A stretch of DNA of 64,000 bases, taken from NCBI GenBank assembly GCA_016779005.1, contig JADHOL010000001.1, forward strand, positions 62,001 through 126,000, given 5' to 3'. This stretch comes from Alphaproteobacteria bacterium. GTDB taxonomy: Bacteria > Pseudomonadota > Alphaproteobacteria > Puniceispirillales > Puniceispirillaceae. The notes under the pieces were generated by a model. It ran no database searches. It was given only the letters and a program-made list of their open reading frames with translations, and was not told where the DNA came from. Shown here piece by piece: positions 46,888-56,727 of the stretch (its first letter is position 1; every line of letters begins with the position of its first letter). The translations under genes were made by a program, and so were the position numbers.

Positions 46888-47487
46888 TTGGATATGATAA
46901 ATATTCAATCTCGCTTTTTGAACGTTATACTGGGCGCTATTTGTTTTTTTTCCCTATCAACCTTTAGTGTGTATGCGCAAGAAAACGCCGCCTCAGAGAT
47001 TCAAGATAGTTTTAAGCTTGAAAGAATTGCTGTTGTAAATATCGATGAAGTTTTGAGAGACGCAAAGGCCACTGAGCGCGTGCGCGCATTGCTAGATGAA
47101 AAGCGGGAAGAGTTTCAAAATGACTTTGCTACGCGTGAAGCCAGCCTGCTACAGATAGAAAAAGATTTGCAATCAAAAAGAACCCTTTTGTCTGAAGAAG
47201 CATATAGAGCGGAGGTGGCTCAGTTTCAAAATGAGGTAGCCTCAATTCAGAAAGAGATTCAGTTTAAACGTCAGGCAATTGATAAGGCATTTCAAGAAGC
47301 TCAAGACGAGATAAGAGCTCTGGCGGCTGAGATTGTTGCAGAAATTGCCGGCAGTCAAAAATTAGATGTTGTGATTAATAAGAGTTCAGCTTTGGTGTTT
47401 AGGCAGGATTTAGATATCACTGAAGCTGTAATTACCCAGCTTAACGAGCGTACGAAAAACGCTCGATTAGAAATACAAGAAGAGTAA
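46888..47487 (+). CDS. OmpH/Skp-family periplasmic chaperone
   Basis: This 199-residue protein has a signal peptide (hydrophobic to about residue 30, ending YAQE) and a long charged coiled coil (about residues 65-155), the Skp 'tentacle' form that carries unfolded outer-membrane proteins to BamA. The start region AVVNIDEVLRDAKATERV matches OmpH proteins. TTG 46888 has AAAGGA at 5 bp; ATG 46894 is also possible. It lies directly after bamA and before lpxD, the standard order. Confidence 0.88.
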   Translation: MDMINIQSRFLNVILGAICFFSLSTFSVYAQENAASEIQDSFKLERIAVVNIDEVLRDAKATERVRALLDEKREEFQNDFATREASLLQIEKDLQSKRTLLSEEAYRAEVAQFQNEVASIQKEIQFKRQAIDKAFQEAQDEIRALAAEIVAEIAGSQKLDVVINKSSALVFRQDLDITEAVITQLNERTKNARLEIQEE

Positions 47488-47491
47488 CTTT

Positions 47492-49000
47492 GTGACGATT
47501 GACCGTAGTTTTTTTCCAGAACCAGAACCTGTATCAGTCGCTAGAATAATAGAATTAGGCAACTGTTTTCTGCGCAAAGGTAGTCCTGATTTTACGGTTA
47601 AAGATGTTGGGGCATTAGACCAAGCAGCATCAGAGTTTTTAGTTTTTGCAATTAATAAGCAACTAATACAAGAGCTTAAATCTGCGCATGGATATGCATT
47701 GATTTGCACGCATGAATTGTTAGAAGAATTTGGAGAGACTATTTTATCTGGTGCCGAGGTAATTTTGGTATCACAAAATCCAAGATATTTGTTCGCCCAA
47801 GCCTGCTCCATTATCTATCCAGAACAGGGAACTAATTCGGGTAGTATCCATCCAACAGCGCAGATAGATAAAAACGCAAATATTGCACAAGACGTAACCA
47901 TCGGGCCGTTTTGTTGCATAGCTGCTGGTGTGGCTATTGGCAGGGGTAGCAGTCTTGGCGCTGGGGTTAACTGTGCTCCATCTGTAAAAATCGGAGAAGA
48001 TTGTCAAATCGATGACTATGTAACGCTTGAGAAGACAATTATTGATGGCGGCTCATCAGTAGGGCAACATTCTGTTATTGGAAAAGCAGGGTTTGGGTTT
48101 GAGTCACATGAAAACGATATTCAAAAGATTCCCCATCTTGGGCGTGTGATTATTGGACGCAGAACAAGTATTGGCGCGCATTGTTGTATTGATAGAGGAA
48201 CCATTCAGGATACACGCATTGAAGATTTGGTTATGATTGATAATATGGTTCATATTGCCCATAATGTACAGATTGGTAGGAAGTCAATTATATTAGCTCA
48301 GGCTGGGATAGCTGGCAGTAGCATTATAGGCGAAAATTGTATTATTGGTGGTCAGGCAGGTATAGCAGACCATGTGAAAATTGTATCAGGTACTGTTATT
48401 TTATCTCGCTCTGGCGTAACAAAATCTATAACTACAGCAGATGTATATGCAGGTTTTCCGGCAATAATTGCCAAGAATTACTGGCGAGAGCAGGCACAAC
48501 TTCGCCGATTAGCCAAACCTAAAAAAAAGATGAAGGATAAAATTATGTCTGAAATATTCGAAATGGATTATCGTGATATAGAAGCTGCAATACCACATCG
48601 TCCCCCGTTTCTTCTTATCGACAAGGTTACAGATATTGTGGTTGGGCAATCTGCTGTTGGGATAAAGGCGGTAAGTGGAGGGGAGCCTTATTTTGCAGGT
48701 CATTTTCCAGGTAATCCTGTTATGCCAGGGGTGTTGATTATAGAGGCCTTTGCGCAGGTCGCTAGCTGTATGTTTGTGCGTGCCATGCCTGGTGAAACAG
48801 AAGGGAAGTTATTTTTCTTAACAACTGTAGATAAGGCAAAGTTTAGAAACCCTGTTCGACCAGGAGATATGCTATATCTGAAAATTGAAAGGACAGGTGG
48901 CAAAGGGCCATTGCAAAAATTCAAAGGGGTAGCCGAAGTTAACGGGGTCAAAATGGCTGAGGCAGAATTATCCGCGATGGTTGTATCAGCAAGTCAATAA
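47492..49000 (+). CDS. lpxD-fabZ: LpxD-FabZ fusion: UDP-3-O-acylglucosamine N-acyltransferase / 3-hydroxyacyl-ACP dehydratase
   Basis: One 502-codon frame contains two complete enzymes. Residues 1 to about 345 are LpxD, which adds the second 3-hydroxyacyl chain in lipid A synthesis: an N-terminal uridine-binding domain, then left-handed beta-helix hexapeptide repeats with the catalytic His region MVHIAHNVQIG. Residues 352-502 are FabZ, the fatty-acid dehydratase, with AIPHRPPFLLIDKV, the catalytic His in GHFPGNPVMPG and Glu in LIIEAFAQ. These are normally adjacent separate genes. The join runs through an A8 tract (48521-48528) and an intact fabZ ribosome site and ATG (48545) remain, so FabZ can also be made alone. 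The start is GTG 47492, 4 bp after ompH. The fusion may be real, slippage-controlled, or a one-base sequence error. Confidence 0.85.
   Translation: MTIDRSFFPEPEPVSVARIIELGNCFLRKGSPDFTVKDVGALDQAASEFLVFAINKQLIQELKSAHGYALICTHELLEEFGETILSGAEVILVSQNPRYLFAQACSIIYPEQGTNSGSIHPTAQIDKNANIAQDVTIGPFCCIAAGVAIGRGSSLGAGVNCAPSVKIGEDCQIDDYVTLEKTIIDGGSSVGQHSVIGKAGFGFESHENDIQKIPHLGRVIIGRRTSIGAHCCIDRGTIQDTRIEDLVMIDNMVHIAHNVQIGRKSIILAQAGIAGSSIIGENCIIGGQAGIADHVKIVSGTVILSRSGVTKSITTADVYAGFPAIIAKNYWREQAQLRRLAKPKKKMKDKIMSEIFEMDYRDIEAAIPHRPPFLLIDKVTDIVVGQSAVGIKAVSGGEPYFAGHFPGNPVMPGVLIIEAFAQVASCMFVRAMPGETEGKLFFLTTVDKAKFRNPVRPGDMLYLKIERTGGKGPLQKFKGVAEVNGVKMAEAELSAMVVSASQ
48521..48547 (+). promoter_or_regulatory. fabZ: A8 tract, internal ribosome site and ATG for fabZ
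   Basis: A8 at 48521-48528 is followed by AAGGA (48533-48537) and ATG (48545-48547) with 7-bp spacing. With A9 the lpxD frame would stop at the TAA at 48538-48540 (window numbering), 4 bp before this ATG; with A7 it would stop at the TGA at 48531-48533. Both layouts are normal for a separate lpxD-fabZ pair. Confidence 0.8.
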
Positions 49001-49037: not shown

Positions 49038-49856
49038 ATGTCGCCAGCTATCCACCCAACCGCAATTATTGATAAAAAAGCCCAGATTGGAAACAATGTA
49101 AAAATTGGGGCTTATTGTGTAATTGGTGAAGATGTAATCTTACATGATGATGTGTGTTTACACTCCCATGTTGTGGTTGAAGGGCCAACAGCGATAGGAA
49201 GAAAAACTCAGATTTTTCAATTTTCAGTGATAGGGACACCTGCTCAGCATAATTTATTTAAAGGAGAGCCTGCATCTTTGGTAATTGGAGAGGGCAATAT
49301 TATTCGTGAAAAAGTTTCTATTCATCGTGGTACAAAAATTGGTGGAATGAAAACAGTTATTGGAAATAATAATTTTATTCTTGCTGATTGTCATGTTGCC
49401 CATGATTGTAAACTTGGAAGCAATAATATCTTAGCAAATGGAGTTGCCTTGGGAGGGCATGTTACATTAGGCAATAATTGTTATATGGGCGCTTATTCTG
49501 CGGTGCAACAATTTGTAAGAATTGGCGATATAGCTATGATAGGCGCTATGGCTAAAGTAACTGAGGATATTATTCCTTATTCAATAGCAGATGGAATGCC
49601 ATGCAGATTACGGCGCGTAAATACAATTGGTCTTGAGAGGCAGAAAATTTCTAAAGCTGAGATATCGGAAATCAGAGCTGTATATAAAAGGGTATTTAAT
49701 CAAGGTGGTGATTTTGGATCGAGATTAATAGAGGCTAGAAAAATAGTAACCAATACTGAGAGCCCTGCTTGGAATATGTTGGAATTCATCAGTATGAGAG
49801 ATAAGCGCCCTATTTGCATGCAGAACAAAGCCAAAGATATTGTAACGGAAGCGTAA
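49038..49856 (+). CDS. lpxA: UDP-N-acetylglucosamine O-acyltransferase
   Basis: This 272-residue enzyme carries out the first step of lipid A synthesis. It is a left-handed beta-helix of hexapeptide repeats beginning IHPTAIIDKKAQIGNNVKIG, with the catalytic His in DCHVAHDCKLG and the C-terminal helical domain (AEISEIRAVYKRVF). AGGA precedes the ATG. It follows the fabZ part and abuts lpxI with no gap. Confidence 0.96.
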   Translation: MSPAIHPTAIIDKKAQIGNNVKIGAYCVIGEDVILHDDVCLHSHVVVEGPTAIGRKTQIFQFSVIGTPAQHNLFKGEPASLVIGEGNIIREKVSIHRGTKIGGMKTVIGNNNFILADCHVAHDCKLGSNNILANGVALGGHVTLGNNCYMGAYSAVQQFVRIGDIAMIGAMAKVTEDIIPYSIADGMPCRLRRVNTIGLERQKISKAEISEIRAVYKRVFNQGGDFGSRLIEARKIVTNTESPAWNMLEFISMRDKRPICMQNKAKDIVTEA

Positions 49857-54640: not shown

Positions 54641-54727
54641 TCTTTATTAATCCTTATTTGCTTAGTATTCTTGCAGATGAATTATTCTAGGCGGCCTTAT
54701 AGCATGAGAAATAATATAAGGGCAGAC

Positions 54728-56727
54728 ATGATTCCACAAAGATCTCGTTTTGTCTGGCTTGTGGGGTGTTTTATCGCAGGCATTCTACTCATAGATATTA
54801 TGCCATTTAGACTACCCACAGCGATATATTTGGTGCTAGTTTTGGGGGTGATACTGCTTATCTGTGATGTTTTGATATTTAATCAGAGTGGCTTTTATTA
54901 TTACAGCAAATTGGTGCTATTATTTTTTCTGTTAGGGTTATCTGTATCTGGTTTGCACTTAAATCTGAATAATACGCCGATTTTAAATTCAGTCTATACA
55001 GGCACCGTAACAGCTCAGATAGGTTTGATTGAGAAATATGATCACAATAGAATCCGTCTTACAGTTACCCCAACCATTAGCGATACTGACGCAAATCTTC
55101 AAGCACTACGTAAATTGCGTATTTGGTCCTATGATAGGCATGATTTTAATACAGGGGATATCGTTAGGATTTATGGCAGGTTTTTCCCGTTATCACCGCC
55201 AAGTTTTGCAGGGCAGCCAGATTATTCCCGGCATATGTGGCTAGATGGCATAGGGGCAACAGGCATTGCTTATGAATTGCGTGTCGTGAAACCAGTAAGT
55301 AATGAGGGGCGTTTCTATTCTCAAATTTTATTAAGACTTGAAGATTACAGACATTCGCTTTCTGATAGAATGAGAAAGCAACTTGGAGGGTTTGACCCAG
55401 CCATATCTGGCATCTCATCGGCATTGTTGGTCGGTATGAAAAAAATCATTCCGCGGGAAACTCATTTCAACAGTCTGGCATTGCCCATTTGCTAGCAATT
55501 TCTGGTTTGCATATGGGGTTTTTCTGTTTTGGAATTTATGGTGTATGCCGTTACCTAATGTCTTGTTTTCCTAACATATCCCAGCGCTATCCTATTCACA
55601 AATCAGCCGCATTTTTATCCATACTATCAGCTAGTTTCTATCTTGTTATTTCAGGCGCACCTACAAGTGCTGTTAGAGCGTGGATGATGGCAAGCGCTGT
55701 GATGATTGCTGTAATTTTGGATGCAAGAATTCTTACCGTCCGTAACTTAGCAATCGTTTTGGTTGTTATGTTACTGATTAATCCAGCAAATATTTTTTCT
55801 ATTTCGTTTCAATTATCAGCGATTGCAACCTTCTTTATAATTGGTTTGTTCGAGGCGCTAAAGCCATATGCCTTAAAACGGCAATTCCTGTCAACGATAT
55901 GGCAAACTATGATAGCCTCCATCGCGGCATCTATTGCAACCCTTCCATTTATTGCATGGTATTTTCAGATTATTACTCCATGGGGGGTTATTGCTAACTT
56001 AGTTGCTGTTCCGTTTACGGGCTTTGTTATCATGCCTGTTGGTATTATATATTTGTTTTTGGTTATTATTGGTCTTGGCGATCTATTGGCACCGTTATTC
56101 GGTGCTTGTTTAAACATTCTCTTGCAATTAGCTGTGTTTTTTGAGGGGCTTCCCTTGTCAGGTTTCTGGGTTAAGTCTCCGCCCTCGCTTAGTTTAGTTC
56201 TAGTTCCCGTGGCAGGTTTATTATTTTTCTGTGTTAACAGACTATATCGCAGTTATGGTTTGATAGTTAGTCTAGCATTTTTAATTATCTGGGCTGTAGA
56301 ACCTATACCCTCCTTCCTAACTTTAAAATCTGGAAATAAAATCATCATTTCTCTTAATGATGGCAGAGGAAGAACGGTTATTAATCAGCAGGTAAAAGGA
56401 TTTTTAAAAAGCAGAATTAAGGCATCCATTGGGGCGCATGATTATCAGATTTGTGACACCGAGCGATGCAAGCAGAGCAGAGCTGATGCAAGTGAGAAAT
56501 TATATATATGTTTTTCCGGCACGAATATTGTTGCTCAAATAGTAAATGAAATGCTGATGAAGTTAGACGATAATAAAGCTCAAGAAACAAACTATTATGA
56601 TAGATGTACCTTAGTGCCTGAATTAGCGGAGCAAGGCTCACTAACAGGGGTGCTTTTACCTAATCAAATAATGCATTTTAAATCAAATCAAACAAGATAT
56701 GGTTTTAAGCCGTGGCGTGTGGATTAG
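54728..56727 (+). pseudogene. comEC: comEC/rec2 competence-type membrane channel, frameshifted
   Basis: Two frames together make one ComEC. Positions 54728-55495 encode the N-terminal helices and DUF4131 domain, ending off-family in FNSLALPIC. The next frame, open to 56727, carries the Competence domain (HLLAISGLHMGFF, SAVRAWMMASAVM, SFQLSAIATFFII). Reading one base differently at TTT 55465-55467 (T4 instead of T3) gives a smooth GMKKIIPRETHFQQSGIAHL join, so a single T seems lost. No C-terminal metallo-beta-lactamase domain is seen. The start is taken as ATG 54728 (AAGGG at 5 bp). ComEC moves single-stranded DNA across the inner membrane in natural transformation. The shift is either a true mutation or an error in the sequence. 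Confidence 0.85.

Follow-up and report, generated by a model that had tools for sequence, protein, structure and literature searches.

The closest described system is the LpxC–FabZ fusion (NF009667/PRK13188), described for Chlorobium (PMC516016) and known in Bacteroidetes, Chlorobi and Verrucomicrobia (PMC3087551); both it and other hotdog fusions are proposed to have originated when operon neighbours lost the stop that kept them apart (PMC516016). FabZ and the lipid A acyltransferases share a pool of (3R)-hydroxyacyl-ACP, and the gene cluster is thought to balance lipopolysaccharide and phospholipid (PMC3087551). The locus studied here, a single LpxD–FabZ reading frame, resembles LpxC–FabZ in carrying FabZ at the C terminus of a lipid A operon neighbour, in the branch-point logic and in its putative stop-loss origin (PMC516016, PMC3087551). 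It differs in its partner, the LpxD β-helix acyltransferase in place of the LpxC deacetylase, and in its distribution, LpxD–FabZ sitting at two isolated tips whereas LpxC–FabZ extends across phyla. Against NF009667 the protein scores 150.8 bits, short of the cut-off of 465, and only its FabZ half aligns (model positions 298–462). Gene order, neighbours and domain lengths are those of the alphaproteobacterial operon skp–lpxD–fabZ–lpxA–lpxI–lpxB, but the stop that separates lpxD from fabZ in that operon is absent here. The best reading of the locus is a new fusion alongside the known LpxC–FabZ type, and we consider it likely to be a real, lineage-private loss of a stop that would give a bifunctional protein together with some free FabZ.

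The window, the whole 64,000-nucleotide stretch that was analysed (G000:C24:62001–126000), comes from a 1.97-Mb assembly of 48 contigs that is 92% complete. An ORF scan of its forward strand shows 47492–49000 as one open frame of 502 residues, with a GTG start and no stop inside; the initial annotation had described this frame, and it proves to be open throughout and to hold two complete domains above curated cut-offs (NF002060, TIGR01853 and NF000582). The LpxD part (47492–48520, approximately residues 1–343) is formed by an N-terminal domain, a hexapeptide left-handed β-helix and a C-terminal helix. It matches TIGR01853 at 267.9 bits (cut-off 242.5; residues 29–347, model positions 11–325 of 325) and the LpxD structure 4e75 (E = 1.3e-46), and a profile search with NCBIfam places the fused protein above the NF002060 cut-off. 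The FabZ part (48545–49000, 151 residues) keeps its own ATG and matches NF000582 at 154.7 bits (cut-off 113; model positions 2–136 of 137) and the FabZ structure 3d6x (E = 1.3e-32); with TIGR01750 it falls narrowly under the cut-off (148.4 against 155.15 bits), the broader NF000582 being satisfied. Codon usage across the junction fits the fused frame and not the other two.

On the same strand, an OmpH/Skp-like gene (46888–47487, named from gene order and sequence and kept beside lpxD in relatives) lies upstream, and lpxA (49038–49856, named from gene order) lies downstream, matching the LpxD query weakly through the common hexapeptide repeat. Within the 92% complete assembly no second LpxD was found, making the fused gene the sole lpxD seen, and no second FabZ either, the only other FabA-like match being a separate protein of 174 residues.

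To compare residues, the lpxD and fabZ genes of relatives were translated as read-through rows, giving an alignment of 17 rows that also served as input for structure modelling. Three residues are invariant in all 17: His257 of LpxD (IAHNV), and His404 (GHFPG) and Glu418 (PGVLIIEA) of FabZ. We take these to be catalytic, His257, in the AHN motif of the β-helix, presumably being the counterpart of E. coli His239. FabZ enzymes use a His/Glu pair, the Glu replacing the Asp of FabA (PMC516016). The AlphaFold2 model, of modest confidence (mean pLDDT 66.8, pTM 0.46), runs from the β-helix through a helix at 327–340 and a linker with pLDDT below 50 to the hotdog strands of FabZ; the linker is thus predicted to be unstructured.

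The junction holds a run of eight adenines read as Lys codons (A8, 48521–48528; contig position 110521), followed by AAGGA (48533–48537), a spacing of 7 nt and the fabZ ATG (48545–48547), so that the retained fabZ start proposed in the initial annotation is borne out. The duplex energy of this ribosome-binding site, −6.2 kcal/mol, matches the best of the 14 further window starts that were scored. Since fabZ keeps both a strong site and its ATG, some free FabZ is probably made, and the fused protein would be expected to occur alongside it. The other two frames close at TGA 48531 and TAA 48538, again as first described; the latter (48538–48540), out of frame and 4 nt before the ATG, is a possible relic of the old lpxD stop, judging by the junctions of relatives. 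These immediate stops in both one-base alternatives are weak evidence, because random spacers often show the same pattern: when 27-nt spacers of matching composition are drawn at random, 42% leave the downstream frame open, and in roughly a third of those both other frames are closed. By comparison of sequences, the informative point is that the frame is open here and closed by a stop at the junction in relatives.

Six genomes of the same genus are readable across the junction (G002, G003, G005, G007, G008 and G009), and in all six lpxD and fabZ are separate, with anything between 4 nt of overlap and 11 nt of gap. In G002 and G007 the genes share a frame and a TAA stands directly before the fabZ ATG, in G008 and G009 they overlap by ATGA, and G005 and G003 leave gaps of 10 and 11 nt, respectively. 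Five of the six carry a fabZ-frame TAA immediately 5' of the ATG, where our genome has ATT; read from this alignment, the missing stop is a difference independent of the A run. The A8 run, whose constancy the initial annotation had suggested checking, is not conserved as a run in relatives; A9 (G009) and A8 (G007) occur at the matching place; spacer length does not settle the run length, because spacers of 26, 27 and 28 nt are all present in the genus. Separate genes in close relatives had been named as the observation that would speak against a fusion. The genes are separate as foreseen, but in other species (~62–68% protein identity) rather than in strains.

Across all the relatives examined in which lpxD and fabZ are adjacent, every junction bar one shows a stop. 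At the DNA level the locus thus has the pattern of an operon-neighbour (Rosetta) fusion, with partners that are separate and adjacent in relatives and stop-free here. In many relatives (L004, L005, L025, L030, L031 and L034 among them) the two genes are in frame and only one stop apart, a single substitution away from fusion.

The exception is G059, the sole genome examined of another genus of the family, which has an uninterrupted LpxD–FabZ frame (L024, 1498–2985 from the likely start; 511 residues from the first start). Its protein exceeds the LpxD and FabZ cut-offs that the window protein passes, and the two align without gaps through the linker. The G059 junction, GTCAAAATGAGATATGGTAAAGGAAAAGCGATG, has no A run longer than A4, so a homopolymer is not needed for an LpxD–FabZ fusion; AAAGGA before the fabZ ATG is also kept there. 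A tree of LpxD plus FabZ places G003 earliest in the genus, then our genome, then the remainder, with G059 outside. On this tree two independent fusions require two changes, against one gain plus two losses for a single old fusion, which favours two independent losses of the stop as the probable history. Within the family, the genus of our genome has the shortest lpxD–fabZ spacer or one of the shortest, so much of the pattern is explained by opportunity. The fusion is probably genuine, though uncommon and of recent origin.

Such a fusion could have arisen from lpxD and fabZ as neighbours in a tight, nearly spacer-free operon, where the lpxD stop would have been lost, probably by a one-base change in its A-rich tail with no in-frame stop before the fabZ ATG. 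Translation would then continue past the end of lpxD through fabZ, yielding a single protein in which a flexible linker of ~15 residues joins LpxD to FabZ, and internal initiation at the kept ATG would supply some free FabZ beside it. As both enzymes use (3R)-hydroxyacyl-ACP, the fusion would fix the proportion of the lipid A step to the phospholipid step; a putative coupling of lipid A acylation with dehydration is plausible. Production and activity of the fused protein, the free FabZ, a metabolic benefit and this order of mutations are inferred. Lipid A and phospholipid synthesis branch at (3R)-hydroxyacyl-ACP, and cells have to keep the two in balance. If the coupling is true, joining FabZ to an acyltransferase that shares its substrate would tie two competing steps together physically, and would provide a test, set up by nature, of whether a fixed ratio of the enzymes is enough. 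Two fusions beside unfused sister species with near-zero spacers offer a view of gene fusion in progress.

Whether selection is involved is a separate matter, and a neutral read-through, fused in the DNA with no functional advantage, transient and tolerated, has somewhat less than an even chance of being the right account. It is compatible with a real fusion and concerns benefit only; the fusion would be tolerated since folding of the two domains would be preserved and free FabZ would be available. The scattered occurrence, at two tips in the order that have unfused sisters, the predicted unstructured linker, the strong internal start kept in our genome and the similar AAAGGA in G059 are all consistent with it. 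Two occurrences in one family argue the other way, yet both are at the tightest junctions, a placement as compatible with opportunity as with benefit. Trimeric LpxD and hexameric FabZ have a threefold axis in common. A bolder proposal, which we regard as doubtful, is that the fusion arose at least twice in the family and was selected as a bifunctional enzyme, which would set the ratio of lipid A to phospholipid by holding the two competitors for (3R)-hydroxyacyl-ACP at 1:1, possibly in a cage where two LpxD trimers sit on one FabZ hexamer.

A real fusion also has to be weighed against an error of sequencing or assembly, or a consensus that captured a minority variant, by which the run length in the population would differ and the genes be separate as in relatives. 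All the evidence for run length is the consensus of one assembly from one strain, and A8 is among the longest runs of the genome (112 A8/T8 and 18 A9/T9 in 824 kb). All six readable relatives of the genus are unfused, and with one more base in the run the lpxD tail would look normal, LAKPKKK plus three residues and a TAA 4 nt before the ATG, resembling the tails of relatives; an A9 ancestor with a recent loss of one A, be it in the cells or in the assembly, is likely on this comparison. We compared ~0.82 Mb of the genome with 0.99 Mb of relatives, matching 573 relative ORFs. The 210 conserved segments (210 kb) hold 86 runs of at least 7 bases, including the junction A8, and no frameshift was found at the ~85 others, 11 of them of at least 8 bases, which puts the error rate per run of at least 7 bases below ~3.5% by the rule of three. 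In the same comparison lpxD–fabZ is the only frame split at the same place by several relatives. With no long-run frameshift in these sequences and an equivalent, homopolymer-free fusion in G059, an error is unlikely and was set aside as the leading reading. Among the three readings in the initial annotation, true fusion is thus the best supported, because of the G059 fusion and the absence of homopolymer frameshifts elsewhere in the assembly sample; homopolymer error is disfavoured, and slippage is not favoured by the data.

Two frameshifts in the genome apart from the junction, in comEC and in a MATE-type transporter gene and neither at a long run, count against the fusion reading. The 573 matched ORFs yielded two frameshift candidates, the MATE-type gene and a divergent stretch on C16, neither shown to involve a long run. 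The former (L206, G000:C4, 3500–3965; named from sequence) has a 2-base deletion near its start, and in the relative G005 a T run in the same gene carries a different frameshift; the C4 gene was considered as a second fusion and rejected on account of these two lesions. In the window, comEC (54671–56727) is split by a frameshift near 55460–55490 into frames of 274 and 412 residues. Six contigs of the same genus have no comEC match, and those that cover the place have the next gene straight after gltX. The split comEC may, from this gene content, be a decaying competence gene; with relatives lacking comEC there, decay is at least as likely as sequence error, and we dropped the frameshift as a sign of error.

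The remaining alternative to a plain fusion, transcriptional slippage, would make a mixture at the junction, A8 transcripts encoding the fusion and A9 transcripts a separate LpxD that ends 4 nt before a coupled fabZ start. A/T runs longer than ~7 make bacterial RNA polymerase slip, with insertions favoured and the frequency growing with run length (PMC5574713), so A8 lies above the limit (PMC5574713, PMC6260861) and both alternative frames stop immediately. But that stop pattern is frequent by chance, and A8 is not conserved as a run among relatives. Slippage, which requires runs of ~7 or more, is reportedly low for the bacterial enzyme, and A runs provoke it less than T runs do (PMC6260861). 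Internal initiation at the retained ATG would already supply free FabZ. Slippage at A8, while possible, is very improbable as the explanation, nothing favouring it over plain translation with internal initiation. The poly(A)-slippage genes of insect endosymbionts share with this locus an A8 run at a frame-deciding place, and differ in that their DNA frame is broken there and mended by slippage, whereas here it is open.

An LpxD–FabZ fusion appears to be rare in wider samples as well. In a survey of the order (136 genomes, ~98 fabZ genes above cut-off), only our genome and G059 have FabZ in LpxD–FabZ frames (~510 residues), and among the matches listed from a class sample (385 genomes) and a phylum sample (399), only our genome spans both domains without a stop. 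The junction, sought with any run length in viral contigs and in the order, matched this genome only. A 544-residue frame in G042 was rejected as a fusion, its length being a read-through count and the genes separate. We found no LpxD–FabZ fusion among the named loci of the genome collection, no NCBIfam model covering both proteins and no open-access paper reporting the fusion, in agreement with the initial annotation, which had known of no established case; unreported cases may exist.

Several named loci have FabZ in frames of ~435–512 residues, the length of LpxC–FabZ, a likeness by length only. The class search also showed LpxD in long open frames (500–611 residues), with no FabZ match joined to them. 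In G443, G358, G255 (genus g140), G485 and G470, LpxD lies in frames of 540–611 residues that are possibly extensions, other fusions or GC-rich open frames. At G127:C154:1765–2169, FabZ lies in an open frame of 251 residues, compared with the usual 150–190.
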